From assembly GCA_028293625.1 (NCBI GenBank), contig JAQGOL010000008.1, positions 62,001-126,000 on the forward strand: a DNA stretch of 64,000 nt, read 5' to 3'. Shown here piece by piece: positions 2,532-19,731 of the stretch. The stretch comes from Chthoniobacteraceae bacterium. Its GTDB lineage: Bacteria; Verrucomicrobiota; Verrucomicrobiia; Chthoniobacterales; Chthoniobacteraceae. Each line of letters begins with the position of its first letter. The first letter of the stretch is position 1. Under the pieces are notes generated by a model. It was given only the letters and a program-made list of their open reading frames with translations. It searched no databases and was not told the DNA's origin. Made by a program: the position numbers and the translations under genes.

Positions 2532-2541
2532 CCGCCTCGAG

Positions 2542-4755
2542 TTACGGAAGATTCCAGCTCTTGCGGCAAAGCCAATCGCCGGCAAGCAATGTAAAAAGGA
2601 GCCCAAGAAGAAGAGGCTGATTCCAGAGATCGGCGAGCTGCATACGGGCGAACTGCTGCTGTTTAAAATGGATGTTCGCGGGCCATTGGGCAGCCTCCTC
2701 GAGAGTATAAAATCTGCCGCCGGATTCTTCCGCCAGCCGTTTGAGCAACTCCCTGTCAATTGGTTTTGAGGTGAGTTCGGCAGGAGGTTTTGCTACTACG
2801 AAACGCGTTTCACCAGCGGCATTTCCACCCGGAAGAGCAAGCAAGGATGCCGCTGTAAAGACGCCCGGGATATTCGGTTCCACCTCCACCCTATAACCTG
2901 GAACTTGTTTGCCATTGGCCATGGGAAGCAGCGCCGGCCTCATCGTATACTGGAAGACTTTTTGATCCGGAGTCGTGAGCGCAAGCGGAAGGGTCGCCGG
3001 CGGTTGACCTTCTTTTTCATCAACCCTGCGAAGAATGGCGCGCACCTCAGGCCGCTCACCCATGAGGTAGTTGGCGCGTTCGGTAAAAAGCTCAAGTTTG
3101 GCGCTGTTGCCTTTCTCCTGTTCCTTGGGAATGAGCCAGTCCATGAGCTGCGTCCAGAACGTGTCGTAGGGTGAGCGCTCGGCGTCCCACGACTTGGCCG
3201 CGAGCCGCCACCGCCAGATTGTATCGGTCAGGATTGATACCACCCGGCCCTGGCCGAACCGGGTCAGCGCAATGAGCGGAGTAGTGCGGCCTTCGCTGCT
3301 TGCTTCCATAAGGACTTCGGCGGTGGCGGCGGCTCCACTCGAATAGTTTGCTGTCAGCAGTGGGGGAAACTCTTTGATGCTGGCAAAGAGCGGGCCGAAA
3401 ACCGGATGCCGCAGCCCTGCATCGGTGATCGCAACCGTGGCGCTGGCCTCCACATATTCAGCGGGCAACTTCACGGGCGAAATGTCAGCCAACGCGGTTT
3501 GTGCAATCGCAGCGGAAGCAAGTGCGTTGCGTCCACCGAGCAGGACAAGACCGCCGCCGCGATTTACAAACTCCTTGAGCGCCTCATAGTCCGCCGCGGT
3601 TAAAGCGTCGACAGCGAGGTCGCCGAGCATGACAACCGAGTAATTTGAGAGGCCTGCGGCGGTCAGCTCAAGCTTTGCATCTGACGGGACGCCACGCTCA
3701 CCCATATTAACGAGCCTGCCGTCGCCCCAGCGCACAAAGGCGTTAAGCTGCAGATTGCGATCAGTGACAATCGCCTTGCGCAGAAATTTGAAGTCGAATC
3801 CAAGCGCGTTCTGCACATAAAGCACCCTTTTGCCGGGTGCCATCGCTTCAATCACAAACGGATACTTTTTTGAATCCGTATCCGCGGCCGCGTCTTCGAG
3901 CCGAAGCTCGTATTGCATCATCCCGGGTTTATCGGGGGCGACGGGGAACGCCACGGGCCGCGTCTGTTCGTCCTCATTAAAGGAGACGGCGACCTCTTTT
4001 TCCTTCCTCCCGTCGTGCCACAATTCGACGCTCACGGTTGATCCACCCATGCCCGAGCCGGTGATTGAGGCGTGAATTTCTGAATCCCATCCGACCACCA
4101 CACGGGCGGGATAATCGACATTTCCAAGCGATACCCGCTTTCCTTTTTGTTTGAGGCTAAAAACGCTTTCGAGTTCGAAAGTGTAAACCGGCGCACCTTT
4201 TGAAACGGTTGTGACAGGCGAGTTATCCAGGCCATCGCTAAGCACCAGAATTCCAGCGAGCGGTTGTCCTCGGAACCGCTCCTGGACCTGGTTTACGGCC
4301 AAACGCAGATTGGAACTCCCACCTTGGAATCCAAGTTCTTTGGGTTCATCCGGCAGTTCCGCAAGGTGGTTGTCAAAACCGAAGAAGTGCAGCTCAAAAT
4401 CGGAGCGAACCTTTTTTAATAGCGGTGAAGCGAGCCATTCTTGTGCCCGGCCTGCGCGGCTCGTCTGCGCAGCGTCGACGGGATCGTTCATGCTTTCGGA
4501 AGTGTCGATAACGACTGCCAGCTGCGGTTTGAGAATGGTGATTTCATCAAACCGGCGTTGCGGTTGAAGAAGCATCACGACAAAGAGAAAAAGTGCGCCG
4601 ATTCGCAGTCCGCCTGAGACCAGGGCGCGCCGGCGGGAATGCAATCCTTGGGTCCACACAATCCCGGCGCCGGCCAGGAGAGCCACGCCGGCGATCAGCG
4701 GCCACGGGAACATCGGAGACCAGAGGATGACAGCTTGAAGGATCGCGAAGTTCAC
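2542..4755 (-). CDS. Membrane VWA-domain protein with glutamine-amidotransferase-like region
   Basis: 737 residues. Two N-terminal membrane segments (about residues 15-35 and 48-64) precede a von Willebrand A domain whose metal site DTSES (residues 84-88) is intact. The middle holds a class-I glutamine-amidotransferase-like fold (LKEFVNRGGGLVLLGG) without an evident catalytic Cys, and a last hydrophobic segment lies near the C-terminus (about 713-732). This architecture belongs to the membrane VWA proteins encoded with DUF58 and BatA-like proteins. They are thought to act in envelope stress or as chaperone complexes, but biochemical function is poorly defined. Its ATG overlaps the stop of the upstream gene by 4 bases, so the two are translationally coupled. 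Confidence 0.8.
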   Translation of the reverse strand: MNFAILQAVILWSPMFPWPLIAGVALLAGAGIVWTQGLHSRRRALVSGGLRIGALFLFVVMLLQPQRRFDEITILKPQLAVVIDTSESMNDPVDAAQTSRAGRAQEWLASPLLKKVRSDFELHFFGFDNHLAELPDEPKELGFQGGSSNLRLAVNQVQERFRGQPLAGILVLSDGLDNSPVTTVSKGAPVYTFELESVFSLKQKGKRVSLGNVDYPARVVVGWDSEIHASITGSGMGGSTVSVELWHDGRKEKEVAVSFNEDEQTRPVAFPVAPDKPGMMQYELRLEDAAADTDSKKYPFVIEAMAPGKRVLYVQNALGFDFKFLRKAIVTDRNLQLNAFVRWGDGRLVNMGERGVPSDAKLELTAAGLSNYSVVMLGDLAVDALTAADYEALKEFVNRGGGLVLLGGRNALASAAIAQTALADISPVKLPAEYVEASATVAITDAGLRHPVFGPLFASIKEFPPLLTANYSSGAAATAEVLMEASSEGRTTPLIALTRFGQGRVVSILTDTIWRWRLAAKSWDAERSPYDTFWTQLMDWLIPKEQEKGNSAKLELFTERANYLMGERPEVRAILRRVDEKEGQPPATLPLALTTPDQKVFQYTMRPALLPMANGKQVPGYRVEVEPNIPGVFTAASLLALPGGNAAGETRFVVAKPPAELTSKPIDRELLKRLAEESGGRFYTLEEAAQWPANIHFKQQQFARMQLADLWNQPLLLGLLFTLLAGDWLCRKSWNLP

Positions 4756-6896
4756 GGGCGTTTTTCCTCCACCTCTTCGGCTCGGAACAACTGGTTAAGC
4801 CGCCGCTGATTCAGACGCCCGGTCCTGATGCGCGCTTCGCCGCTTTGGGACCGGCGTCTGGCCAGGAGATTTGAATAGATCGATTCGGTGGCGAACGCCA
4901 TCAGCGCCAGCGCGAGAAACAGAGGCCAGAGCGGGACCAACCCCCGGTTTTGCGCCAGCCAAACGTGGAGCGCGTCGAGCCCAATGATGCTCTCGTGAGG
5001 GACAATCCGATTGAGCGCTTCCTCACTGATCGGAGTTAAGTCCGACTCGTGGGCATCGAGATTGACGGCAAAGGCATAAAGTTCTTCGGAAGCCGTGAGT
5101 GAATAAAAGCCCGCGTCCCCCGCCCTTTCCGACAAAGCGGCTCCGGGCGCGATTGTCACCGCATCGCCGGCAGGTGGCTTCAGAGTCAGCGGCTGATCAC
5201 GCGGGATGCCCGGCGGGGCAGGAACCGGATCGCCAATCAGGAACTCGGATTCGCGGCCCGTGCGCGAAACCGAGAGGCGCCCGATCTGTTGCATCAACGG
5301 AAGGAATGCCGAGGTCAGAGGAAAATCACCCCAGCTTCGGTCGGCTGAAGCGTTTACGATAATCACGCGCCCGCTGCCGCGTTGGGCGAAGATGATGAAC
5401 GGCAAATGATCGCCTAGCGTAAGAATCACCCGGGCGCCGGCACCGAGTTTCCAATTCAACAACTTGCGCTGCGGCAATGCCGGAAACGGTGTGTTGGCAT
5501 CCCATGAGTTGATAAAGAGCGGATGCCGCGGCTCAAGAGCCTGCGCAATGAGCCGTCCGGCAGGGAGGTCGCGGATTTTTTCCGGCTCTGCCGGCATCCA
5601 TTCAAGCCGTGCCACGGCCGCGGCATCGAGCAGGTCGCCCGGAAAAAAGACAACCGTTCCGCCTGCTTCAATATACCGATTGAGCTGTACGGAACTCCGA
5701 TCGCCAATATCGACTCCCGCCAGAAAAATCGCTGAAAACGGCTCCAGCGACAAATCATCGAGCCCGGCCGGGGAGACAGTTTTCAGGGGCGCACCCCGGG
5801 CTCCAGCCGTCAGCGCTTTTCGAAGGTAAAAACCGGGGCGGGTCTTTTCGGGGCCTTCGCCGGATTCAACCACCAGGAGTCGCGGTGTCTGATAAACGGC
5901 CAGGGTAAAATAGCGGCGGTCATCGGCTTCAAGATTATCGCCGGAAAGCGAGGCGGTTCCCTGCGCCCAGCGTCCCGACAGGGCCGGCATCTGAAACTCA
6001 AAAGGGAGCTCCATGGAACTCCCCGGTGCGACCTCCACCGGACGGGCGGCGACCTTTTCTTCCCCAAGCTTAATTTCCAGCAAGTCGCGCAATGTGGAAG
6101 CGGAATGATTTTCCACCACCGCAACGCCTCGCGTCATCATATCGGGGGCGGCAAAAGGGGTCTCAAAACGGATTTTACTCACCGTCGCATTGATTGCCGT
6201 AAGCGCATCCGGCCTCACCACTGCCAATTGCGGACGAGTGCGTTTCCAAGTCTCATCAAAGACCGTGTTTTTCTCAAACTGCCAGCCGTTCTCCTGATTA
6301 TCGGTGAAAAGAAAGATCTCTTTGACCCCGCGCCCGGTTTTTCCAATCGCTTTACAGGCGCTCTTTAAAGCGGCTGAAAAATCGGTCCTGCCCTCGGTGG
6401 ATTGAATCGAATTGATCGCCTGCCGGGCAGCCGCATGATCCACGGTCGGTTCGCCAATGAGAAGTCGTGCGCGGTCGCTCACGGCGATCACCACGACTTC
6501 ATCCCCAGGTTTCAGATCGTCGATGATGGCACGGGCCCCGTCCTTGGCGCGTTCCAGCCGGCTCATATCGCCGCTCTTGTAGGTCATGCTCAGCGACTCA
6601 TCGATCACCAGCGCAATTGATCGGGGTACATTGCCGCTGAAAAGTTTGGTGGAATCCGTTGAAAGCAAAGGGCGGGCTGCGGCAAGGATGAGCAGCACGA
6701 AAATCAGGCATCGCAACAATAGCAGCAGCAGGTTTTCAAGTTTCGCGCTTCGGCTTGTGCGGGCGGCCACCACCTTTAAAAATCGAAGCGTGCTGAACGG
6801 CACCTTGACCACCCGTTTTCGTTGCCAGAGATGGATGGCGATCGGTGCCAGCAATGCGCCGAATCCATAAAAAAGCCAGGGGGCGAGGAATGTCAT
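4752..6896 (-). CDS. BatA-like membrane protein with VWA domain
   Basis: 714 residues from the ATG at 6896. This start is chosen over an upstream in-frame one because AGGAGA lies directly before it and the protein then begins with the family's usual hydrophobic MTFLAPWLFYGFGALLAP. Residues 1-80 match the BatA aerotolerance-regulator N-terminal domain (two membrane segments around a short basic loop, LWQRKRVVKVPFSTLRFL). A VWA domain follows with metal site DESLS (99-103), then a long periplasmic or amidotransferase-like part (FIEAGGTVVFFPGDLLD-type region) and a C-terminal hydrophobic segment (LVPLWPLFLALALMAF). It starts 13 bases after the DUF58 stop and overlaps the next VWA gene, so the three form one operon. 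Molecular function is not established. Confidence 0.82.
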   Translation of the reverse strand: MTFLAPWLFYGFGALLAPIAIHLWQRKRVVKVPFSTLRFLKVVAARTSRSAKLENLLLLLLRCLIFVLLILAAARPLLSTDSTKLFSGNVPRSIALVIDESLSMTYKSGDMSRLERAKDGARAIIDDLKPGDEVVVIAVSDRARLLIGEPTVDHAAARQAINSIQSTEGRTDFSAALKSACKAIGKTGRGVKEIFLFTDNQENGWQFEKNTVFDETWKRTRPQLAVVRPDALTAINATVSKIRFETPFAAPDMMTRGVAVVENHSASTLRDLLEIKLGEEKVAARPVEVAPGSSMELPFEFQMPALSGRWAQGTASLSGDNLEADDRRYFTLAVYQTPRLLVVESGEGPEKTRPGFYLRKALTAGARGAPLKTVSPAGLDDLSLEPFSAIFLAGVDIGDRSSVQLNRYIEAGGTVVFFPGDLLDAAAVARLEWMPAEPEKIRDLPAGRLIAQALEPRHPLFINSWDANTPFPALPQRKLLNWKLGAGARVILTLGDHLPFIIFAQRGSGRVIIVNASADRSWGDFPLTSAFLPLMQQIGRLSVSRTGRESEFLIGDPVPAPPGIPRDQPLTLKPPAGDAVTIAPGAALSERAGDAGFYSLTASEELYAFAVNLDAHESDLTPISEEALNRIVPHESIIGLDALHVWLAQNRGLVPLWPLFLALALMAFATESIYSNLLARRRSQSGEARIRTGRLNQRRLNQLFRAEEVEEKRP

Positions 6897-6909
6897 TCTC
6901 CTGAATTTT

Positions 6910-7809
6910 TCAAAGCGACATCCGCCGCCGCTCCAACAGGTATTGATGAATGAAGTCCTCGAAGCTTTCCGAGGTGAAGACCAGCCGGTAATCGACATTC
7001 ATCACGGCGCATTTTTCACGGATCGCGTCGATGGCTTTCTGCAGCTCGTGCTTATAAGCTTCGCGGGCTGTGACCGGGTCGATCTCAAGAGTTTCGCCCG
7101 TCTCCATGTCGATAAATTCAGCGATGCCGCTCATGGAAAGATCGAGTTCCGCCGGGTCAAGAATTTGGAGAAGGATCACGTCGTGCATTTTCTTTTTAAA
7201 ATGCGCGATGGCGTTGAAGAGCGCGTCGGGATCATCGAAGCAATCGCTCATCAGGACGATCAGCCCGCGCCGGGAAATCATCTCGGCAAGCGCATGCAAC
7301 GCTTTGCCGGTATCGGTCACATTGCACGGTTGATGGGAGGCAAGGCGGTCGACAATGAGCCGCAAATGCCGCGATCCGCTCCGGGCCGGGACCATTTCGC
7401 GCACTTCATTGTCGTAAACGGTCAGGCCGATGGAGTCGTGTTGTTTGCCGACAATATAACCGAGCGCCACTGCCACGCGGCAGGCATATTGATACTTAGT
7501 GGGATGCTCCGGCGAGCCGTATGCCATCGAACCCGACGCATCGAGCACGACATGGACGCGCAAACTTGTTTCCTCCTCATACTGCCGAATGACATAACGC
7601 TCCGTGCGGCCAAACACTTTCCAGTCCAGATGCCGGAGATTATCGCCCTTCGTATAAGCGCGCCGATCGGCAAACTCGACGCTTTGACCTTTCAGCGGGC
7701 TTTTATGACCACCGCTCATGGAGCCTTCCGTGATATAACGCGACCGCACGGCGAGTTGCTCGAGCTTGCGCAGCGATTCCACCGAGAGGAAATCCGAGAT
7801 GGAAGCCAT
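6910..7809 (-). CDS. DUF58 domain protein
   Basis: 299 residues, the usual length for the family. The DUF58 signature is clear (VEFADRRAYTKGDNLRHLDW, residues 44-63), followed by a VWA-like fold with metal site DASGS (90-94). No membrane segment is visible, so the protein is probably cytoplasmic or peripheral to the BatA-like partners encoded downstream. DUF58 genes normally sit beside a MoxR AAA+ ATPase and VWA proteins. Here the VWA proteins are present but no MoxR gene is seen in the window. The start is 4 bases from the stop of the preceding gene. Confidence 0.88.
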   Translation of the reverse strand: MASISDFLSVESLRKLEQLAVRSRYITEGSMSGGHKSPLKGQSVEFADRRAYTKGDNLRHLDWKVFGRTERYVIRQYEEETSLRVHVVLDASGSMAYGSPEHPTKYQYACRVAVALGYIVGKQHDSIGLTVYDNEVREMVPARSGSRHLRLIVDRLASHQPCNVTDTGKALHALAEMISRRGLIVLMSDCFDDPDALFNAIAHFKKKMHDVILLQILDPAELDLSMSGIAEFIDMETGETLEIDPVTAREAYKHELQKAIDAIREKCAVMNVDYRLVFTSESFEDFIHQYLLERRRMSL

Positions 7810-7812
7810 GCG

Positions 7813-8613
7813 TTAAAAAGTGGCTGCAAACAAATGTTCCGTATCGGCAAACAACGCCCAGCCGTCCCCGATAAACAAAAGGCCGATTTCGCCGAGCCGG
7901 CCGCCTTCCTGAAGCGCCGCCGTTTTTCCGGCCGCATCCCGCAACTCCAGAACGCGCCGGCTTCCGACCAGCCGGCTGGTTATTTTCCACGAGGGAACTG
8001 GCCGAGCTGGCTTAAGCGCGTCCTCAAAACGCGAAAGAAGCGGGTAGCGCGTGGTGCCGAGCTGATAGCGTTGCTTTACAAGCTTGAGATGATTTGGCGC
8101 CGCTGGCTTATAAACCCACGGTTCGCCCCACGCATCCAATTGAAGGTTTTTCGGAATTTCCTCCGCCGCTTCACTTAACGAATCAGGAAACCGGACTTGT
8201 CGCCGGTAAAATTTAAGCAAAGCTGCGTCGACCTGCCGCATGGCAAGGCGAGAGAGCCAGGCGCGGGCAAGCTCCCGCAATCCGGCCGTGCACGAGTCGT
8301 CGCCATTCGCTTTCGCGGTGTGCTCAAGCTCCGGGAGCCAGAGTCCTTCCTCGAGTCCCGCCCGCATTTGAATCGACGCTTTCTGAAAAACGGCCGCGGG
8401 ACGAACCGCAGCAGGCAGATCGGAAGCGGCTTGATCGAGCGCCGCCAGTTTGGCCGGCAGCGTCCGGGGAGGTTCATCCGTCCAAAGCTCGGAGGGGGCC
8501 AAACCAAACGACACCTGGGCCGCCAGCAGATTGAGAGCGAGCAGGATCCGCGTCACTTTGGCGAAGAATGGAGACCGGGGGGCATACGCTGGGCGCAGGC
8601 TAGGTGAAATCAT
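7813..8613 (-). CDS. Secreted protein of unknown function, first gene of the DUF58/VWA cluster
   Basis: 266 residues. The N-terminus has a basic stretch followed by a hydrophobic segment (ILLALNLLAAQVSFGLA) that reads as a signal peptide or anchor. The region near residues 125-160 (FPDSLSEAA... LDAWGEPWVYKP) resembles the C-terminal part of type II pseudopilins, where a DPWGNPYVY motif is typical, although there is no FTLIE-type leader. It lies 4 bases upstream of the DUF58 gene and should be co-transcribed with it. I do not recognise a named family; the gene occupies the place where MoxR is often found but shows no P-loop. Confidence 0.7.
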   Translation of the reverse strand: MISPSLRPAYAPRSPFFAKVTRILLALNLLAAQVSFGLAPSELWTDEPPRTLPAKLAALDQAASDLPAAVRPAAVFQKASIQMRAGLEEGLWLPELEHTAKANGDDSCTAGLRELARAWLSRLAMRQVDAALLKFYRRQVRFPDSLSEAAEEIPKNLQLDAWGEPWVYKPAAPNHLKLVKQRYQLGTTRYPLLSRFEDALKPARPVPSWKITSRLVGSRRVLELRDAAGKTAALQEGGRLGEIGLLFIGDGWALFADTEHLFAATF

Positions 8614-8692
8614 TTCCCGCGCAAGGCTAAGCGCTCTTCGATGAAGCGCCGCCGCAATGCATGCACACCCAAACAGGCCGGTCCCGCGCGAC

Positions 8693-8721
8693 TTTCTTGC
8701 GGCACAACCGTCCGATACAAT
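8693..8721 (+). promoter_or_regulatory. Possible sigma70-type promoter of the metal ATPase gene
   Basis: TACAAT (8716-8721) is one mismatch from the -10 consensus, with a weak -35 (TTTCTT, 8693-8698) at an ideal 17-base spacing. If used, transcription would begin near 8728, which supports the ATG at 8765 over the one at 8657. Prediction by eye only. Confidence 0.3.
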
Positions 8722-8764
8722 ATTACCTCACGACCGTGTCAATCGCGCGTCACTGCCCCAACAT

Positions 8765-11143
8765 ATGAAACCGGACGAGCTCTTCCCTGCCCCGCCAGCT
8801 CAGGCGGCACCAAAACCGATGCAATCGCAGCCGGGCGTTTTAAGTACCGGGATCGACGAGCGCGAACATGCATTGACGATTGATTTTGATCCACGGGTCA
8901 TCTCCGAGGAAGGCGTTCGAAAAGTGGCGGCCGAACTCGCGCCGATCGGGCATCAACTCTATTGCAAGGCGCTCCTACGGCTGGGCGGCCGGGCTTCAGG
9001 CGCCGCGGAACTCAAGCTCGAACGCAAGGCGCAACGGATCGAGGGCGTGCGCCGCGCGCGGGCTACTTTCCGCGGCGGCGTCATGACGGTCACTTTTGAT
9101 GAAGCCAAGCTTTCCGAGGCGCAGATGATGCAGCGGGTGCTCGAAACCGGGGCGGAAATCCGGCCTTATACCCATGAAGCTGAAAAACAGCCGGAGACCC
9201 TTCGGGAACTGGCCACCCATTGGACAACCGGCGACCGGGCTGAACTCCTCTGCACGGCGCTCACCCTCATCTTTATGATCGCAGGATGGGCCTGCGCGAA
9301 AATTGGCAGCAGATGGTCGGCCGTTTTTTACTGCGGCGCATATCTGACCGGGGGCTATTTTGGAGTCCAGGCGGGGTGGCAATCGCTGCGTCAATGGACC
9401 ATTGACGTCGATTTGCTCATGGTATTGGCGGCGCTGGGAGCCGCCGTGGTCAATGCGCCATTTGAAGGGGCAATGCTCCTATTTCTCTTCTCACTCTCCA
9501 ACGTCCTCCAGTCCTACGCCATTGATCGCACCCGCAAGGCGATCCATTCCCTGATGAAACTGCGGCCCGACAAGGCGCTCACCCGGCGCAATGGGGAAAC
9601 CGTGCTCCTTCCCGTGGAGGAATTGGTCGTGGGCGACATCGTCGTTGTCCGGCCCGGGGAAAGCATCGCGCTCGACAGTGTTGTGATTGAAGGAAGCAGC
9701 TCGGTCGATCAATCCTCGCTGACGGGTGAGTCGATCCCGGTCTCGAGAAAAAGCGGTGACCCGGTTTTCGCGGGAACCATCAATCAGAGCGGCGGACTGG
9801 AAGTGCGCGTTACCAAGCTGGCCAAGGATTCGACGATTGAAAAACTGGTACGCATGGTGGAGGAGGCCCAAAGTGAAAAGGCCGACACTCAACGGTTCCT
9901 TGATCGTGCGGAGCAGTTCTACGCAGCCGGGGTTATCCTTTTCACTATCGGACTGATCATCTGGCCCATCGCCGTTGGGCACGTTCCATTTCACGCCGCG
10001 TTTTACCGGGCCATGACGGTCATGGTTGTCGCCTCGCCCTGCGCGCTGATCATCAGCACGCCGGCCTCCATTCTCTCCGCCATCGGTGGCGCGGCCAGAA
10101 AAGGGGTGCTCTTCAAAGGTGGCGTCCATCTTGAACGGGCCGCTTCGATTAAAGTCGTCGCGTTTGATAAAACCGGCACGCTGACCGAAGGCAAACCGCG
10201 TGTCACCGACGTGATCGCCGGGGAAAACGCCATTGATCTCCAGGCCGAGCCGCACAACTCTGCCGCATTGGAGTTGCTTCGCCTCACAGCGTCGGTCGAA
10301 GCCAAATCCGAGCATCCGCTGGCAAGGGCGATTGTGATGGAAAACGAAGCGCGCGGCCAGGCGAGTGCGGAATGCGCGGCGTTTCAATCAACTTCAGGCA
10401 AGGGAGCCAGCGGCCTGGTGGAAGGACGCCGGATTGCGGTCGGAAACGCGCGTTACTTCCGATCGCAACACGGAGGAATCGGCGACGGGATTGAGCAGAA
10501 GGTCGCCGCATTACAGCAGGAAGGCAAAACGTGTGTGATTGTCGGGGAAATCGATGAGTGCACCGGCATCGCCACCCTTTTGGGGGCGATCGCGATTGCC
10601 GATGTGCTGCGGGCCGATGCCGCCGATGTGGTCCGTCAGCTCAAAGCGAGCGGAATCGAACGCGTCGTCATGCTGACAGGCGATAATCAGCGCGTGGCTG
10701 AAGCAATCGCGAGGCGGGCTGGCGTGGATGAGTTCCACGCCGATTTGCTGCCCGAAGACAAGGTGCGCGTGATTAAGGAACTCAAAAATATCGGCCCTGT
10801 GGCGATGGTGGGCGATGGAGTCAACGATGCGCCGGCCCTCGCCACGGCCACGATCGGAATTGCCATGGGAGCCGCCGGCACGGATGTGGCCATGGAAACC
10901 GCCGATATCGTCCTCATGAGCGACAATCTGCAGAATATTCCATTTGCGTTGGCCTTGAGCCGGCGCGCCCGCCGTGTGATTTATCAAAACCTGGCCTTTG
11001 CGCTCGGCGTCATTGTGATCCTGGTCATCTCGGCGCTCGGATTTGGACTCCTCTTACCGATCGGCGTTGTCGGCCACGAAGGAAGCACGGTTCTTGTCTG
11101 CCTCAATGGGCTGCGGATGCTCGCTTTCAAAAATTCCAAATAG
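8765..11143 (+). CDS. P1B-type heavy-metal translocating ATPase (P1B-4-like)
   Basis: 792 residues from the ATG at 8765; an in-frame ATG at 8657 would add a 36-residue non-conserved extension. Expected role is ATP-driven export of a transition metal across the inner membrane. Visible motifs: actuator TGES (321-324), metal-site SPC in the transmembrane helix (424-426), phosphorylation site DKTGT (Asp468), hinge MVGDGVNDAP, and HEGST (from His771) in the last helix. The SPC plus HEGST pair is typical of P1B-4 (CoaT/CtpD-like Co, Fe or Zn exporters) rather than CPC copper pumps; this assignment is family knowledge. The N-terminal ~110 residues look like a degenerate metal-binding domain without CxxC. 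No metal regulator is adjacent. Confidence 0.88.
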   Translation: MKPDELFPAPPAQAAPKPMQSQPGVLSTGIDEREHALTIDFDPRVISEEGVRKVAAELAPIGHQLYCKALLRLGGRASGAAELKLERKAQRIEGVRRARATFRGGVMTVTFDEAKLSEAQMMQRVLETGAEIRPYTHEAEKQPETLRELATHWTTGDRAELLCTALTLIFMIAGWACAKIGSRWSAVFYCGAYLTGGYFGVQAGWQSLRQWTIDVDLLMVLAALGAAVVNAPFEGAMLLFLFSLSNVLQSYAIDRTRKAIHSLMKLRPDKALTRRNGETVLLPVEELVVGDIVVVRPGESIALDSVVIEGSSSVDQSSLTGESIPVSRKSGDPVFAGTINQSGGLEVRVTKLAKDSTIEKLVRMVEEAQSEKADTQRFLDRAEQFYAAGVILFTIGLIIWPIAVGHVPFHAAFYRAMTVMVVASPCALIISTPASILSAIGGAARKGVLFKGGVHLERAASIKVVAFDKTGTLTEGKPRVTDVIAGENAIDLQAEPHNSAALELLRLTASVEAKSEHPLARAIVMENEARGQASAECAAFQSTSGKGASGLVEGRRIAVGNARYFRSQHGGIGDGIEQKVAALQQEGKTCVIVGEIDECTGIATLLGAIAIADVLRADAADVVRQLKASGIERVVMLTGDNQRVAEAIARRAGVDEFHADLLPEDKVRVIKELKNIGPVAMVGDGVNDAPALATATIGIAMGAAGTDVAMETADIVLMSDNLQNIPFALALSRRARRVIYQNLAFALGVIVILVISALGFGLLLPIGVVGHEGSTVLVCLNGLRMLAFKNSK

Positions 11144-12383: not shown

Positions 12384-14048
12384 TTACAGGATTTGTTGAC
12401 GGGGCATAACACGCGCCAGTTCAGGGAGAACCTCGGGATCCGAAGGCGTGTTTCTATGGGAAAAGGCGCTTTCCGGATTTGGAAAAGTGATTCTCACAGC
12501 AGTGCCATGGTCCCTTTGAAACCGGATCGTTCCCTCGAGTTGCCTGGTGAGGTCACGCACCAATTTCAGCCCGAAGGTGACATCCTTTTCAACATCAAAG
12601 CCCTCCGGCAGGCCGACTCCGTCGTCGCGCACGCATAGCTCAATGTAATCGCTTCCGACCAGCCGCAGTTCCACGGCAATGATGCCCTCTCTGCCGCCCG
12701 GAAAACCATGCTTGAGCGCGTTGGAAACCAGCTCATTGACGATAAGACCGCATGGCATCGCCTCATCCAGGCCGAAGTAAATGCCTTCGGAGTTTACTTT
12801 GAGAACGATCCTGCCGTGGCTGACCTCATACGCCTGAAACACATCCGCAGCCAGCTGCCCAATATAACCATTGGACTCAATCCTGGTCATGTCGCTTGAG
12901 GCGTAGAGTTTCTCGTGAATAAGCGCAATTGAACGGGCGCGCGTCTGCGCCTCGCGCAGCGCCTCCAGCGTTTTGGGTTCGGTGACATCGGCCGACTGCA
13001 GATAAAGCAGGCTGCAAATGACCTGGAGATTGTTTTTCACCCGATGATGAATCTCCCGTCTCAAAACCACCTCTTTCTGCAGCAGCATATCTTTTTTCAA
13101 TGCCGCCTCCATTTGCTCATTTGCGCGTTTACGTTCAGTTATATCGCGCATGATGATGGTAAAAAGCGTTCTGGCACCTATTTCTACATGCGAAATTGAT
13201 GCCTCAATCGGGAATACCTCGCCATTCATGCGGCGCGCGCCAAGGGGCTCCTCGACGCCTTTCACCGTGCCAGGGGAACCGGCGTGCACACACTCCTCCG
13301 CGCGGAAGCCTTCCGGCAGAAAGCGAGCAATCGAAGTGCCCAGCACTGCTGCCGCCTCGCAACCAAGCATCTGCTCCGCAGCCGCATTAAAAAGCACGAT
13401 GCGTAAATCGGCATCGATCGTAATGATGGCGTCCATCGCGGAGCCCACAATGCCAGCAAGCCTCGCGCGGCTTTCTTCAAGGGCTTCAATGGCTTTTTTA
13501 AGGCCTTCGTGCTGTTGCCGGAGAGCTTCTTCCATTTTTTTACGCTCCGTCAAATCGACCACCACAATGCATATCCCCTGAAGTTCCTGCATTTTGAGCG
13601 GACTCAACGCCAAATCGACGGGCACAGCCGTTCCATCACGGCAAAATAGCGCGATCTCGCCGCTGGCGGGCGTCCTGCATCCTTGGGCACACAGCACAGC
13701 AAAGCGATCGCGGTCCTCCAGTTTGACATACGAAAGCAGGTTTGCTCCGACGATGGATTGCAACGATTCCTTGAGAAGGCTGCCGAGACGATGGTTGGAA
13801 AAAAGAATCAGCCCGTCCGGTGTGATCACGACCGCCCCTTCATTCATGGTTTCAACCATGATGCGGTAAGGCTGCTCCGCGCCCTGGAGTGTATAGACCT
13901 GGTCGCCGCCCTCGCCCTTAACCACCAATGCATCCACCGCGCCATCGCGGATTGCCGAGAGCGTGGCATTCGCTTCCTGCAGCCGCGCCCGCAACCGATC
14001 CATTTCCAGGTTGAGATTCCAGATGACGTTATTTCCGGGATTGGCCAT
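12384..14048 (-). CDS. PAS-PAS sensor histidine kinase (HisKA_2 type) of the kai operon
   Basis: About 554 residues from ATG 14048; a GTG at 14063, directly abutting the kaiB stop, is an alternative start adding five residues. No membrane segments. Order: short coiled coil, PAS domain (~60-170), second PAS (~193-307, ending FTIIMRDITERKR), a HisKA_2 dimerisation domain with REIHHRVKNNLQ carrying the phosphorylatable His (~334), and an HATPase domain (~425-530; ELVSNALKHGFPGG, DDGVGLP). Ends with a short tail and no receiver. It is the last gene of the kaiC-kaiB-kaiB operon, so it is a candidate output or input kinase for the Kai proteins, in place of cyanobacterial SasA (which has a KaiB-like sensor domain and a different kinase class). 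That link is inferred from the operon only. Confidence 0.88.
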   Translation of the reverse strand: MANPGNNVIWNLNLEMDRLRARLQEANATLSAIRDGAVDALVVKGEGGDQVYTLQGAEQPYRIMVETMNEGAVVITPDGLILFSNHRLGSLLKESLQSIVGANLLSYVKLEDRDRFAVLCAQGCRTPASGEIALFCRDGTAVPVDLALSPLKMQELQGICIVVVDLTERKKMEEALRQQHEGLKKAIEALEESRARLAGIVGSAMDAIITIDADLRIVLFNAAAEQMLGCEAAAVLGTSIARFLPEGFRAEECVHAGSPGTVKGVEEPLGARRMNGEVFPIEASISHVEIGARTLFTIIMRDITERKRANEQMEAALKKDMLLQKEVVLRREIHHRVKNNLQVICSLLYLQSADVTEPKTLEALREAQTRARSIALIHEKLYASSDMTRIESNGYIGQLAADVFQAYEVSHGRIVLKVNSEGIYFGLDEAMPCGLIVNELVSNALKHGFPGGREGIIAVELRLVGSDYIELCVRDDGVGLPEGFDVEKDVTFGLKLVRDLTRQLEGTIRFQRDHGTAVRITFPNPESAFSHRNTPSDPEVLPELARVMPRQQIL

Positions 14049-14063
14049 GGGATGGAGCGTCAC

Positions 14064-14417
14064 TTACAAGGCGCGCTTGAGCAGATTGAGTCCCGCAAGA
14101 ACGTGTTCCTCGCTGGAAAGATCACCGATGATCCGGCGGATCGGCAGCGGCAATTGCTTGATTAAAGTAGGCACTGCGGTGAGCTGAGCCTCGCGGGCGA
14201 GTTCGGGCTGCTGATAGATATCGATAATTTCCAACTGATAACGGTTTGCGAGGTGCTGCTCGCAGATTCTCTTGAGGTTGGTAATCGCGCAAACCGAGTT
14301 CCGTGTCGTCCCAGCTACAAAGAGACGCAGCACATAGTGGGTCGTCGGCGGTCTGGCAGCCGCTTTTTCGAAGGCTGCCGCGCTCTCTGCGAGAGATTTA
14401 TCGGGGTAATGGTTCAC
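14064..14417 (-). CDS. kaiB: KaiB family protein (second copy)
   Basis: 117 residues. The KaiB thioredoxin-like domain starts at about residue 28 ([14 protein letters not shown]) after a non-conserved N-terminal extension. Conserved blocks [23 protein letters not shown] and [15 protein letters not shown] are present. KaiB binds the KaiC ring and modulates its phosphorylation and ATPase state in cyanobacteria; in non-photosynthetic bacteria it is usually tied to stress or environmental adaptation (family knowledge). Start and stop overlap neighbours within the operon (4 bases with the upstream kaiB). It differs clearly from the upstream copy, so the pair is an old duplication. Confidence 0.9.
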
Positions 14418-14749
14418 GCGATGATTTTTTTTGGAACCAACCGCACATCCAACCCCACCAGCACCCGTTCTTCGTTGGAGAGATCGCCAATGATCTTCCT
14501 CATTGGTGAGGGCAGCTTGCGCACCAGGGTGGGGATGGCCAGAATCTGATCACCTTTTGCCAGCTGGGGCTGCAAGATCAGGTCGATCACTTCAATGCAA
14601 TAGCGGCCCGCGAGGTGTTGCTCACAAATCCGCTTGAGATTGGCGAAAGCGATAAGCGACTTCGGCGTCTGGCCCGCTACATATAACCGCAACGAATAGA
14701 CCTCGGAAGGGGCCGCTTCGTCGCCGCTGCTCCCGTTTTTTTGCTTCAT
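14414..14749 (-). CDS. kaiB: KaiB family protein (first copy)
   Basis: 111 residues, close to the cyanobacterial KaiB length of about 100. The KaiB domain begins near residue 18 ([14 protein letters not shown]) and contains [28 protein letters not shown] and [12 protein letters not shown]. Its ATG overlaps the kaiC stop by 4 bases, so translation is coupled to kaiC. Expected partner is the KaiC ring encoded directly upstream. The C-terminal ~10 residues (RLVPKKIIA) are not conserved with the second copy. Confidence 0.9.
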
Positions 14750-16497
14750 GTGATTTTTTTCTGGTCGAGGAGTTCGCCGGTATCACCCATGCGGAGTTGA
14801 CCCGGCAACCGTTGCGTTTGCTCCCGAGCCACCTCCTGGGCTGCCAAAAAATCCGCCTCATCTGTTTCCAGTTCCGCTTCCGCTTCCAGCTCCGCTTCAA
14901 AAGCCGCGATCCGCGTTTCGATCGCTTTGCGTTTTCGGGCTGTCCGCCTTGCCTGACGCTCCGCCCGTTGACGGCGCAGACCGACACTGGCTCGTTCGCC
15001 GGCTTCATACGACGCGCGGGCCGTACCAATCAGCACCTTTTCTTCCACGACACGGATATCGACCAAATAAACCCCGTTGTTACTCAGGATAAATTCACGA
15101 GCCTGATTGGAATGCGTCATCCCCCGCGACTTGATGACGCTCAGGATCCGGTTGCGCTCGCGATCCGCTTCAATGTTGCGCAGCGAAATCAAGGTATCCA
15201 TCAACGACGAAATACCGATATGCGGCTCCTCCATGAAAGCGCCCTCTGAGACCAGGCTGGTAAAGAGAGCAGTAATTCCCCGCGACTTTAAAAGGTCAAC
15301 AAGCTGCATCAGCGTCGGCTTTAATTCCCACGCGGGCATGGACAACGAAAGATTGCTGAGCGGGTCGATGACCACCACGGCGGGATTGAAGCTCTCAACG
15401 AGGCATCTCAGTCTCCACAAATGCATTTCCAATCCATAAAGCGTCGGCCGCGTGGCGTGAACGCGGAGCAGCCCCTGATCAATCCATTGGCCGAGATCTA
15501 TGCCAATTGAATGCATATTGCGGACGATCTGGTCGCTTGATTCCTCGTAAGCAACCAAAAGACAGCGCTCGCCGCGGCGGCAGGTGGCATCGACAAAACT
15601 CGCTGCGACGCTGCTTTTTCCCGTCCCCGGTGATCCCAAGAGCAAAATACTACTACCCCGATAAAAACCCTCCCCTGAAAACATCTCATCCAATGACGCG
15701 ATGCCGCTGGAAACCCGATCAGTGGGGGCCTTGTGCTCCAGGCGCAGGGAGGTAATCGGCAGGACCGATATCCCGGAGTCTCCAATCAAAAACGGATACT
15801 CATTGGTCCCGTGGGATGAACCGCGATACTTGACGATCCGCAACCGGCGCGTGGTCACTTGCTCAGAAACCCGGTGATCGAGCAGAATGACACAGTCCGC
15901 GACGTATTCCTCAAGTCCATGGCGGGTCAATGTCCCCGTCCCTTGTTCCCCGGTAATGATTGCCGTCAGACCATTTTCCTTTAGCCAACGAAAAAGCCGG
16001 CGCAGTTCAGCGCGCACGATCATCTCATTAGGCAGCCCCGCAAACAGCGCCTCGATGGTGTCCAAGACCACACGCTTGGCGCCGATGGATTGGACGGCAA
16101 AGCCTAAGCGGATAAACAAACCTTCAAGGTCATACTCGCCGGTCTCCTCCACTTCCTCCCGTTCTATGCGGACAAAATCGAGCACGATTTTCTTTTTCGC
16201 CTCGAGATCACTAAGATCAAACCCCATCGAACGGACATTTTCCACCAGTTCCTGGGACGATTCCTCAAACGACATGAACACGCCCGGTTCATCAAAAAGC
16301 GTCGCTCCCCGGACCAGAAATTCCATTGCCAGAAGCGTTTTACCACAGCCCGCGCTGCCGCAGACCAAAGTCGGACGCCCCTGCGGGAGGCCCCCGGAGG
16401 TGATCTGATCAAAGCCCTCAACTCCTGTGGGCGCCTTTCGAATACCGCGTACAGTCAAAGGCACCAGCTCATTCCTTTTCTGTTGGCGCTTGGCCAT
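14746..16497 (-). CDS. kaiC: Circadian-clock-type ATPase KaiC
   Basis: 583 residues with two RecA-like domains. The CI P-loop is GSAGCGKT (47-54) with catalytic Glu78/Glu79. The CII P-loop is GSPGTGKS (288-295) with Glu318/Glu319, at almost the same numbering as cyanobacterial KaiC. The autophosphorylation site, Ser431-Thr432 in Synechococcus, reads Ser430-Ser431 here ([10 protein letters not shown]). The domain ends near residue 505; beyond it is a ~75-residue tail rich in Arg then Glu/Ala, probably a coiled coil, unlike the short KaiA-binding tail of cyanobacteria. Expected to be a hexameric ATPase/autokinase. First gene of a four-gene operon with two kaiB genes and a histidine kinase. No kaiA is seen. 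Confidence 0.95.
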
Positions 16498-16794: not shown

Positions 16795-18453
16795 ATGAGC
16801 GAACATACGTTTTATAAACGATCTATTACTCTTAATCACCAATTATCACCTCCGGATCTGCAATTTAACCGTACACTGCTAGAAATCGTCGGGATTTTGT
16901 TCGTTAAATGCGTCTCAAGACGTATAGGTATTCAATCCGGGTTACGCTTTATTGCGGGCTTTTTGGCAGCCTTCGGGTTTGCAACCAATGCCATTGCGTT
17001 GACCGAAATGCCCCAACTCCTGCAGGAAGGCATTCCAATACGCGACCTTGATGGCCTTACAGGCAGCGAAGTCGTCTACCGGGTGATTGTTCCGCCCGGC
17101 AGCACAAACCTGAAATTCAGCACATACGGAGGCTGGGGAGACTGTGACATTTACGCGCGATTTGGAGCGCATCCCGATACCACGAATTTTGATCAGGCAA
17201 GCAAGAGTTTATCGACAAAAGAAACCATGACGGTGGAACTCCCGCACGACGGTGTTTGGTACGTCATGTTGCATGGGTACGCAGCCTTTAGCGGGGTGAG
17301 CCTCATAGGTCAGTATCAGCAGGCTCCAAATAGCGCTGCCATTCCGCTCTTTAGCCCTGGCCCCGGTAAATTCAGTCAGGCAGCGCGCATCCAGCTGAGG
17401 TCGCCCAGCCTGGGTGCAAAAATTTATTATACAACGGATGGCACCGATCCAACCGTGCTATCAACCCGCTATCGGCAACCGATCGTTTTGACCCAGACCG
17501 TCATACTCAAGGCATGCGCCATTCTGGCAAATGGCAAACAAAGTCCGATCGCCGACGGCACATTTGAATTCGTCTCAGACGTCCAGCCCAACGAGCTCCA
17601 AAGTGGAGTCCCGGCATTCTCACTCGCTGGAAATCACGGAAACTTAACATACTTTAAAATACATGTCGGCGCCGGCGAACAGATTTTGAGAATCAGCAGC
17701 AGCGAGGGAAGTGGGAGCAGCGCGATTTATCTCAGCTACGGAACCCTCCCGACTACAAAAAGCTTTGACCGAAGAGTAAACGGTCCGCGCAATCTCGCTC
17801 AAATAGAAGTAAACAACCCCACGGAAGGCGACTGGTATGTGGCCGTGCGTGGCGTGACCAATTATTCAGGGGTCGCCCTTCTAGCGAGCACGAGCTCCCG
17901 GGATGCTGATCTAATCGTATGGGCCGCTTCTTTGAAGCCTTATGTCACCCAGGAGAACTTTCTTCCCGGTGACTGTTCCGTGGTGGAAGGCCTCATCAAT
18001 GCCGGACCACACCGTTTGCTGCGCTTCACAACGGAGTCGCGCAATATCGGCCAGGCAAACCTCATGATGGGCAGTCCGGTGGGCAATCCGGCCTTTGAAT
18101 ATGCCCCCTGCCATGGACACTATCATTTCAAGGGATTTGCTGCTTATCGTCTGCTCGATCTTCAGAAACAGGTCGTTGCAACCGGGAAAAAGGTCAGTTT
18201 TTGCCTCGAGGATGTGGTGCAATGGAATCCGAAGGCTCCTGTCGATCCCAAGTTTGACTGCTCCAACCAAGGAATCCACGCAGGATGGTCCGATGTGTAT
18301 GACAGCGGACTGCCTGGACAGTGGGTCGATATTACCGGTGTCCCACCCGGAAAATACCTTCTCGAAGTCATCATGAATCCCGATCAGTTTCTTTCCGAGG
18401 CCGATTACGGCAACAATGTGACGCGCCAGTTGGTGACAATCGGCCCGCCTTAA
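16795..18453 (+). CDS. Secreted lysyl-oxidase-like copper protein with PPC-type domains
   Basis: 552 residues; the start is supported by AAGGAG eight bases upstream. A hydrophobic segment at ~48-68 serves as signal or anchor after a long N-terminal region. Two beta-sandwich repeats (about 80-175 and 265-365) resemble bacterial pre-peptidase C-terminal (PPC) domains. Between them lies a chitobiase-C-like repeat (KIYYTTDGTDPT, 209-220). The C-terminal ~180 residues match lysyl oxidase: copper-binding CHGHYH (439-444), GKKVSFCLED (464-473), QGIHAGWSDVYD (492-503), QWVDIT and EADYGNN. Aligned with human LOX from memory, Lys466 and Tyr502 fall where the lysyl-tyrosyl-quinone cofactor forms. Predicted activity is oxidative deamination of lysine or other primary amines outside the cell; substrate unknown. 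Confidence 0.85.
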   Translation: MSEHTFYKRSITLNHQLSPPDLQFNRTLLEIVGILFVKCVSRRIGIQSGLRFIAGFLAAFGFATNAIALTEMPQLLQEGIPIRDLDGLTGSEVVYRVIVPPGSTNLKFSTYGGWGDCDIYARFGAHPDTTNFDQASKSLSTKETMTVELPHDGVWYVMLHGYAAFSGVSLIGQYQQAPNSAAIPLFSPGPGKFSQAARIQLRSPSLGAKIYYTTDGTDPTVLSTRYRQPIVLTQTVILKACAILANGKQSPIADGTFEFVSDVQPNELQSGVPAFSLAGNHGNLTYFKIHVGAGEQILRISSSEGSGSSAIYLSYGTLPTTKSFDRRVNGPRNLAQIEVNNPTEGDWYVAVRGVTNYSGVALLASTSSRDADLIVWAASLKPYVTQENFLPGDCSVVEGLINAGPHRLLRFTTESRNIGQANLMMGSPVGNPAFEYAPCHGHYHFKGFAAYRLLDLQKQVVATGKKVSFCLEDVVQWNPKAPVDPKFDCSNQGIHAGWSDVYDSGLPGQWVDITGVPPGKYLLEVIMNPDQFLSEADYGNNVTRQLVTIGPP

Positions 18454-18465
18454 TCGTGGCCGCCC

Positions 18466-19731
18466 TTACTTGGCGATGTTGATCGCAAAGGGAATAAACC
18501 GCGAGACCCCGCCAATCTGCACTTGGCAATAGAGCCGGATATGCCCGGCTTTGGGCACGGCAAAACGAAACATGAAGCTTGGGCCGCCGCGGTCGGCCGG
18601 TTGTTTTGGTTCATCGCCCAGTGGATGGATATGGACCACCGTTTTCCGGTCCTCGTAAAATCCGACCAAATGCGCATAGGCGCCCATGATCGGCTCAAGT
18701 CCCCGAAACGGGACACCCTCGGCATCGCTTATCTTCACCACTGCATGGACGGGTTGATTGGCATAGACCGGACGTCCATCCGTAAGCCAGGTCAGCTCGT
18801 ATTTAAGCCCCGCGTCGTATCCGATGGCCACTTCGGAGCGGCTTGCCAGGGCTGAACCATGGTCGCTTCCTGCAAGATCACATACCGGATATTCCTGAAG
18901 TCCGGACTCAAGGGGAGTGACATCGGCAAAGATCCGATAGGAACCTGCGCGGCGCGGCGTAAAAGTCAGTGCATACTCGCCCGGAATCCCGGTGGGCCGG
19001 GGATGCTCGTGATGATAGTCCTCGAGGCTCTCATCGATAATCAGCAGATGGATTCGTTCCGTGTGAACCACCATTAACTCCTCTGAATCAACGGGTCGTC
19101 CGCCACGCTTCCAAACAAACCTCAGCGACACTTTGCATTGTTCGCCCTTAACAAGAATACATTCGCTGGTTGGCGTGATGGCAATGGAAGGCTCAACCAC
19201 CGCGGTGGCGGGAATGGTTCGCGCGACAAGCTTCATCCCGCATTTTGGGCAGACCGTTTTCGGATTAAGTTCGCGAATGCCTTTGCACATCGGACAGCTA
19301 AAAACCGGCGCGTGAACGACGTCGGCCGGATAGAGGCCAGCGGTTTTCCGAAGAAGAGCGCGGTAACTGATAGCGCTATTGATTGTCGCCTCGGCAATCA
19401 AACCGCTGCTGTCATGCCCCAGGGAATCGGCGCCTGCCGCCAATGCAGTCAAGCTACCTTTCAGCGAACTACCTTGAGCGCCCTGTGAAGCATTCTTCTG
19501 GAGAAAACGAATGGCTTGAAGACTAAGAACCATCTGCGTTGGAATCTCCTTCAGCTGGTTTTCAATCACGAGCTTTTCGATGTTCGCCTGACAATGCATC
19601 AATACATTCCAGGCTTCCGGCACAGAAACTGGAGGTGCTAGTTCCAGTCCATCATGAGCGGACAAACCGCGGCTTAATAGAAGAAGGATGGGGAATACAA
19701 TTCGGGGCCACATAGCCGCGCACGCTATCAA
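18466..19731 (-). CDS. Secreted protein with Cys4 heavy-metal-binding motif
   Basis: 421 residues. The N-terminus is a signal peptide (IVFPILLLLSRGLSA). The first ~130 residues are helical. A Cys4 module follows near residues 143-170 (FSCPMCKGI... TVCPKCGMKLV), as in the 'heavy-metal-binding domain' attached to copper-efflux proteins (family knowledge). The remainder is two beta-sandwich segments rich in His (DYHHEHPRP, TVVHIHPLGD), the pattern of periplasmic copper-associated proteins that precede CusB-like efflux parts. It converges with the lysyl-oxidase-like gene, 12 bases apart. Possible roles are metal binding or sensing at the envelope; no enzyme motif is seen. Confidence 0.72.
   Translation of the reverse strand: MIACAAMWPRIVFPILLLLSRGLSAHDGLELAPPVSVPEAWNVLMHCQANIEKLVIENQLKEIPTQMVLSLQAIRFLQKNASQGAQGSSLKGSLTALAAGADSLGHDSSGLIAEATINSAISYRALLRKTAGLYPADVVHAPVFSCPMCKGIRELNPKTVCPKCGMKLVARTIPATAVVEPSIAITPTSECILVKGEQCKVSLRFVWKRGGRPVDSEELMVVHTERIHLLIIDESLEDYHHEHPRPTGIPGEYALTFTPRRAGSYRIFADVTPLESGLQEYPVCDLAGSDHGSALASRSEVAIGYDAGLKYELTWLTDGRPVYANQPVHAVVKISDAEGVPFRGLEPIMGAYAHLVGFYEDRKTVVHIHPLGDEPKQPADRGGPSFMFRFAVPKAGHIRLYCQVQIGGVSRFIPFAINIAK

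Follow-up and report, generated by a model that had tools for sequence, protein, structure and literature searches.

A 64,000-nucleotide stretch of contig JAQGOL010000008.1 from a Chthoniobacteraceae bacterium (assembly GCA_028293625.1; this whole stretch is called the window below) carries a minus-strand operon of kaiC, two kaiB genes and a histidine kinase gene. The operon belongs to the known kind of KaiBC-kinase cluster. As far as could be seen, its regular build is new: two ordered KaiB lineages (KaiB-a, then KaiB-b), followed by an output protein that starts with a short N-terminal module and ends in variable output domains. On balance, we lean towards reading it as a KaiBC timer or energy switch that works independently of KaiA, like that of R. 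sphaeroides, and that has an output protein of its own, recruited or released via the module, perhaps by KaiB-b. Genomes, contigs and loci of our data are designated by G, C and L numbers.

The open reading frame (ORF) coordinates and Pfam domains agree with the sequence-only reading, which had described four minus-strand genes in a closed unit, a two-domain KaiC, two different KaiBs and a PAS-PAS HisKA_2 kinase. There are 4-base overlaps between kaiC and kaiB-a (14746-14749) and between kaiB-a and kaiB-b (14414-14417), and the kinase start immediately follows the stop of kaiB-b, in a frame shared by both genes. Pfam finds the KaiC ATPase domain twice in the kaiC product (376 bits), KaiB in the two KaiBs (87.8 and 92.2 bits), and two PAS domains, HisKA_2 (93.8 bits) and HATPase_c in the kinase. 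Scanning the operon for promoters and terminators gave one promoter-like site, with 2.1 expected.

The window KaiC scores 699 bits with NF006799 (cut-off 408). Its closest PDB chain is R. sphaeroides 8dba (590 bits, residues 17-541), S. elongatus 1tf7 scoring 332 bits, and the R. sphaeroides alignment up to residue 541 includes part of an extension past CII. Both P-loops and both EE pairs are present, with GSAGCGKT and SFEE in [10 protein letters not shown] and AYEE in CII. Two adjacent phosphorylatable residues in CII, Ser430-Ser431, are putative phosphosites; this column pair is SS in 57 of 67 aligned operon KaiCs and aligns with GLSSLMD of R. sphaeroides. From the SNQ motif onward the window KaiC has 121 residues (102-131 among the 67 KaiCs). 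KaiB is present in the window's genome, and KaiA was not found: PF07688 had 0 matches in this draft (96.4% complete, 43 contigs), with the S. elongatus control positive. The earlier statement that KaiA is not seen thus holds for the whole draft, and the description as a timer or switch of KaiBC type, rather than a proven oscillator, is supported. A SasA-like kinase was considered and rejected, as the SasA-type KaiB-like domain (PF07689) was not detected in the window kinase.

When five of the kinases were aligned, they had in common an N-terminus of about 45 residues before unlike bodies, with the consensus LRxRLEEAEETLRAIRxGEVDALVVxGxxGxQVFTLxGADxPYR. The module profile A3, of whose 20 rows the window kinase is one, gives 126 bits on this kinase directly behind kaiB-b. 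The window's own genome has only two strong module matches, both in the kinases behind its two tandem kaiB pairs. Conservation continues through a hairpin to R67; the AIxxGxVDA core served as the scan pattern and is hence invariant in the scanned set by selection, which does not apply to R67. The modules of L128, L139 and L155 deviate from this core. Predicted on its own, the kinase N-terminus folds into a helix (10-39), a hairpin (45-58; predicted local distance difference test, pLDDT, about 70), a PAS domain and a coiled coil. A PDB profile search with the module gave one weak match, to a piece of Rho-kinase (E 0.023), and the matches listed in structure searches were PAS domains, none of them informative on the module.

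To survey the module more widely, its core pattern was scanned in one genome per species (84,980 species), which yielded 475 stretches and 340 relatives. The best 79 of these 340 were kept, a set skewed toward the window's type; 72 loci are from Bacteria, 6 from Archaea and 1 is unassigned, with 15 named phyla among them. Judged by ORFs, two kaiBs lie directly upstream of the module in 65 of the 79 loci and one in 8, and six-frame profiles add neighbouring kaiBs at L090 (one) and L106 (three). L056, L060 and L067 start too near a contig edge to be judged. KaiB adjoins the module in 75 of the 76 assessable loci, the exception being L064 (Methanoperedens), where kaiB matches lie 5 kb ahead of the module ORF and 2-3 kb past it. 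A kaiC is found further upstream in 63 of the 65 two-kaiB loci. L081 is cut by the contig end, and L123 (Gemmatimonadetes, 6156-8602) has KaiB-a, KaiB-b and a module kinase with no KaiC in the 6 kb of upstream sequence covered.

A less biased sample consists of 288 genomes from the window's phylum and 329 from the phylum of G343 (Thiobaca), 617 in total, including the starting genomes G000 (two module hits) and G343 (one). With strong modules defined as at least 65 bits in the window's phylum and at least 48 bits in that of G343, the former has 16 strong matches in 15 genomes, 15 of them at most 1 kb 3' of a same-strand kaiB, and in the latter this holds for 9 of 9. Pooled, the proportion is 24/25, or 21/22 without G000 and G343, the one match away from kaiB being G075:C49 (L139). 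The module stands behind 17 of 17 tandem kaiB pairs versus 7 of 61 single kaiBs (Fisher 5.5e-12), and without the two starting genomes behind 14/14 versus 7/59. Tandem here means a kaiB pair less than 700 bp apart; G026 was counted as tandem though its second kaiB lies in two frames, and the 61 singles include at least 3 at contig ends (G250:C51, G153:C128, G194:C213) as well as 14 kaiB pairs 0.9-2.5 kb apart that were entered one by one. Dropped from the analysis were KaiB rows below the family cut-off (10 in the sample from the window's phylum and 2 in the other) and module rows of 23 bits (1) and under 27 bits (9). As a side observation in the phylum of G343, L159 (G451) and 13 like loci have KaiB pairs 0.9-2.5 kb apart without a module; in L159, by eye, one kaiB stands before a kaiC and after a kinase and two receiver genes.

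Output domains were scanned in 71 module proteins, namely those of the window, of the second operon of its genome on contig C31, of three plasmid loci and of 66 of the 79 loci. HisKA was found in 43, HisKA_3 in 9, HisKA_2 in 5, HWE in 4, HD in 5, GGDEF in 3, EAL in 2 and a sigma-54 activator domain in 2 (families can overlap, and 25 of 38 families are listed); PAS occurs in 70 of the 71. Non-kinase examples are L063 (GGDEF-EAL), L087 (GGDEF), L050 (HD) and L158 (sigma-54 activator). L158 (Syntrophaceae, 1815-7734) has the order kaiC, kaiB-a, kaiB-b, output, kaiB, output, and it is the second module output that carries the sigma-54 activator domain. The sequence-only reading had stressed that a kinase of another class occupies the place of SasA. 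HisKA_2 is indeed present, but the emphasis was misleading, for the class is the variable part of these proteins and their common part is the N-terminal module, which went unmentioned.

The second regular element is the pair of KaiBs. Across 70 tandem loci, KaiBs in first and in second position fall into two nearly clean lineages (3 changes when a and b are compared alone). Against all rows, lineages a and b take 4 and 9 changes, the shuffled means being 50.7 and 51.1 with 0 of 500 shuffles as low, on a tree of few columns in which 80 of 147 forks are unresolved. The misfit rows L122_a and L122_b are an artefact of ordering by ORF start; the longer ORF holds the second KaiB. The signatures, [29 protein letters not shown] for a and [31 protein letters not shown] for b, remain separate in loci from 15 named phyla. 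Of the 13 tandem loci not used for the profiles, all have a first and b second; none has a 200-base stretch in common with a profile locus, and some of the 13 belong to the same genus. The KaiB-b signature lies at strand 2 and just after it. Since other a/b differences occur in both halves of the protein, this location is only a pointer. A recent tandem duplication of kaiB was rejected, as the two lineages are largely separate, and so were tandem KaiB fusion proteins, since the 252-aa ORF of L084 has one KaiB domain by eye. The closest PDB match to KaiB-a is 8fwj chain M of the R. sphaeroides system; KaiB-a also matches Legionella Lpp1115 (4kun) with 53.6 bits. A kai operon involved in stress response reportedly exists in Legionella pneumophila, likewise a non-cyanobacterium.

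Single KaiBs were also assigned to the lineages. Twelve stand beside a strong module (98-116 bits); five are clearly b, by 12-31 bits, in six the two scores are within 6 bits of each other and b is never behind, and one (L090) is a. L110 and L117, whose KaiB context is fragmentary, were left out of the twelve; both score b above a. Where the module is weak (53-90 bits), at four alphaproteobacterial plasmid loci and at L154, the single KaiB is a-type. In G174 (L128/L161; one contig, 100% complete) nothing matches the window KaiC, while a b-scoring KaiB with IYQQP and a HisKA_3 module kinase are kept. This KaiB retains 21 of 24 conserved N-half residues, a middle rank, and 14 of 21 conserved C-half residues, the joint lowest with L066 of 69. 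A receiver-type gene adjoins the pair (by eye).

Checking the conservation of the four-gene order, as the sequence-only reading had proposed, gave a positive result at several levels. The window's genome has six KaiB matches, all in open frames of 111-161 aa, and seven two-domain KaiCs. A second kaiC-kaiB-kaiB-kinase operon lies on contig C31 (L008 1222-9777), so that this genome carries two copies of one system. The C31 kinase has the core LHNVGN and is in this unlike the window kinase (by eye), and hybrid kinase and receiver-like genes adjoin it. The remaining five KaiCs are on C26, C11, C8, C6 and C21; two are each accompanied by one divergent KaiB without a kinase immediately after it, three have no KaiB match on their contig, and on C26 a multi-PAS hybrid kinase lies about 1.9 kb beyond kaiC-kaiB on the same strand, past an opposite-strand gene. 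KaiB is patchy among relatives, with 5 of 38 genomes positive including the window's own and 0 of 3 other genomes of the genus. The order kaiC-kaiB-kaiB-PAS output is kept in three of the four other KaiB-positive relatives: G018, which belongs to the window's family (kinase frame split), G023 (contig ends within the kinase) and G026 (second kaiB split over two frames). In the fourth, G025, a large PAS hybrid kinase stands with a single KaiB. Because the order recurs in relatives and across other phyla, it goes beyond chance. Among plasmids, L043-L047 (Rhizobiaceae, Rhodobacterales) carry kaiC-kaiB(-kaiB)-kinase cassettes, and 2 of the 5 plasmids were typed as conjugative; plasmid-borne cassettes fit a patchy spread.

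KaiC-KaiB-kinase clusters outside cyanobacteria, as described in the sequence-only reading, are not novel, being already in print (PMC3164672, PMC4794148, PMC5520375). In nearly all non-cyanobacterial kaiC-kaiB clusters the next gene downstream codes for a histidine kinase or a GGDEF/EAL protein (PMC3164672). Of the four kaiBC clusters in a Nitrospirota genome, three share a contig, and the intervening genes are mostly for kinase domains (PMC10278575). The closest solved KaiC and KaiB are those of the KaiBC hourglass of R. sphaeroides (Cereibacter), encoded on plasmid pB as kaiC-kaiB-HWE kinase. Both systems have a long KaiC tail and a Ser-Ser site, and R. sphaeroides has no KaiA (PMC10076222), which was not found in the window's draft genome either. 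In R. sphaeroides the phosphosites are S413/S414, the coiled-coil KaiC tail joins two hexamers in a KaiA-independent hourglass, KaiB attaches to the CI domain in its fold-switched form, and resetting is brought about by ATP/ADP (PMC10076222). The linked kinase is on record (PMC5520375, PMC6627678). It lies directly downstream of kaiB and has a recognisable module (75 bits), weaker than in most tandem-KaiB loci; the R. sphaeroides system has one a-like KaiB and a kinase annotated as HWE, whereas the window has two KaiBs and HisKA_2. The proto-circadian timekeeper of Rhodopseudomonas palustris is likewise described with the order kaiC-kaiB-PAS histidine kinase (PMC4794148), one KaiB being named in contrast to two in the window. 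The cyanobacterial KaiABC clock with SasA/CikA-RpaA shares the two-domain KaiC, KaiB and a kinase output that reads the Kai state, but in the window KaiA was not found, the kinase has no KaiB-like domain and lies inside the operon, and there are two KaiBs. In the Ramlibacter tataouinensis family, a kinase (Nt_HK) follows KaiC and has a family-specific N-terminus proposed to bind KaiC; by their description, these pairs differ from the window in being kaiB-less and in an N-terminus likened to SasA/KaiB (PMC3164672). Our literature search turned up nothing on tandem KaiB lineages or the module, which is weak evidence of novelty, as subscription papers were not covered.

The steps that the favoured reading assigns to the operon are partly carried over from R. 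sphaeroides and cyanobacterial work, namely the KaiC chemistry and the binding of KaiB to KaiC. KaiC would autophosphorylate on Ser430/Ser431, with the long C-terminal tail replacing KaiA, and would become dephosphorylated when ATP/ADP falls; KaiB-a would bind the CI ring and accelerate this dephosphorylation. In favour of the reading, KaiC, KaiB-a and the tail are, by sequence, closest to the solved R. sphaeroides proteins. That a single operon maintains two KaiB lineages suggests a division of labour between them. KaiB-b may be a second KaiB specialised for output, its C-terminal half binding KaiC and its own docking face being presented. The N-terminal helix-hairpin module of the output protein may dock on Kai proteins and thereby attach this protein to a KaiC state or free it from one, with KaiB-b as a candidate bridge. 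The PAS domains and coiled coil would then set the HisKA_2 kinase, and the output end would be interchangeable between species. Signalling through the linked kinase, as proposed in the sequence-only reading, is a natural inference from the operon.

Several observations weigh against this scheme. Modules without a neighbouring kaiB exist (L139, L155); L139 (G075:C49) is a short module ORF in a genome without a KaiC match, and L155 (G328), like L156 (G338, beside a kaiC remnant at a contig end), lies away from kaiB in a genome that has a full-length KaiC of the window's type elsewhere. L090 combines a single a-type KaiB with a strong module, and the alphaproteobacterial single KaiBs, among them that of R. 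sphaeroides, are a-like and go with a less strong module (75-90 bits). The tandem loci of G026, G212 and G285 pair a b-type second KaiB with a weak module (65-71 bits), so the strength of the module is not simply a matter of KaiB type. The G174 pattern is what one would expect if the C-half of KaiB served KaiC and its N-half the kinase, but it is a single case, and L066, which has KaiC, has an equally altered KaiB-b C-half. When KaiB-b was joined to the kinase N-terminus, the predicted fold showed no docking (predicted template modelling score 0.57), and the hairpin blocks, with pLDDT 71 and 63, gained nothing over the value of the N-terminus alone. In the joined fold KaiB-b has the order strand-helix-strand-helix-strand-strand-helix, which we take to be the fold-switched form. 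Finally, in a mirror-tree comparison of 54 loci the module distances track KaiC (partial 0.39), not KaiB-b (0.06), with KaiB-a at 0.12.

This last result would fit a direct, SasA-like contact of the module with KaiC, for example at the CI ring or in the tail bundle, with KaiB-b acting as a competitor or second brake instead of a bridge. SasA uses the CI site that is also bound by fold-switched KaiB (PMC6378743). However, KaiC distances are simply better measured because KaiC is the longer protein, tandem KaiB and module occur together in every one of the 17 pairs, G174 lacks a KaiC match yet has both a b-type KaiB and a module kinase, and at L123 both KaiBs and the module were found without a nearby upstream KaiC; we regard direct contact as rather unlikely. 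Somewhat less likely still is that the kinase is an input, with its PAS domains sensing redox, light or a ligand, the kinase or its response regulator feeding KaiBC, and the module bringing the sensor to KaiC. PAS domains are sensor domains, and it has been proposed that in R. sphaeroides a redox signal reaches KaiBC through the linked kinase (PMC5520375), but in other species the same module fronts GGDEF/EAL, HD and sigma-54 activator domains, which are effectors, and there the signal more likely runs outward. The long helix at the start of the module and its sole, weak PDB profile match to Rho-kinase would also suit a plain co-inherited cluster, in which the two KaiBs do the same work and the module, a coiled coil, does no more than dimerise a kinase lineage that is carried along with kaiBC. 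We consider this improbable, as the catalytic parts are not one lineage, conservation extends beyond the helix through the hairpin to R67, and the KaiBs keep separate signatures across the named phyla.

The coordinates of the operon features are collected in the table. Divergent from kaiC, the window carries a gene on the plus strand (16795-18453) with PPC, chitobiase C-terminal and lysyl oxidase domains, followed on the minus strand (18466-19731) by a gene for a 421-aa protein with no Pfam match and, by eye, a metal-binding-like CPMC...CPKCGM motif. A plus-strand gene at 8657-11143 encodes a P-type ATPase, judged from its domains.

Table. Positions of the kai operon genes and of their domains and sites in the window
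Feature	Position	Strand	Description
kaiC	14746..16497	minus	583 aa; two RecA-like ATPase domains and long C-terminal tail
kaiB-a (first KaiB)	14414..14749	minus	111 aa; lineage a
kaiB-b (second KaiB)	14064..14417	minus	117 aa, GTG start; lineage b
Output kinase	12384..14063	minus	559 aa, GTG start; N-terminal module, PAS, PAS, HisKA_2, HATPase_c
Putative KaiC phosphosite codons, Ser430-Ser431	15205..15210	minus	operon KaiC alignment; R. sphaeroides chain alignment
KaiC C-terminal tail, about residues 495-583	14749..15015	minus	partly aligned with R. sphaeroides tail
KaiB-b strand 2 and b-type IYQQP motif, residues 60-71	14205..14240	minus	group-specific columns; predicted strand 60-66
Kinase N-terminal module, residues 20-67	13863..14006	minus	conserved; long helix and beta-hairpin
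Kinase first PAS, residues 69-160	13584..13859	minus	Pfam; fold prediction
Kinase second PAS, residues 196-317	13113..13478	minus	Pfam/profile
Kinase HisKA_2, residues 337-412	12828..13055	minus	Pfam
Kinase HATPase_c, residues 440-530	12474..12746	minus	Pfam

The question behind these data is how KaiBC timers without KaiA inform the cell of time or energy state; no kinase is named in the paper on R. sphaeroides, whose main text mentions neither 'histidine kinase' nor 'operon' (PMC10076222). A short module that mostly lies beside kaiB and is fused to interchangeable outputs provides a defined peptide for binding tests. It is also a marker for candidate Kai-controlled kinases, cyclic di-guanosine monophosphate (c-di-GMP) enzymes and transcription activators in non-cyanobacterial genomes. 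Tentatively, and with less confidence than in the reading of the operon itself, many bacterial phyla and some archaea may share one plan, consisting of a timekeeping KaiB, an adaptor KaiB and a short module through which any output, be it a kinase, a c-di-GMP enzyme or a sigma-54 activator, docks on KaiC, a plan that would predate or parallel the cyanobacterial SasA/CikA. The recurrence of the gene set in many bacteria and some archaea, nearly always with the module at the start of the output protein, hints at how simple timers relay their signal.

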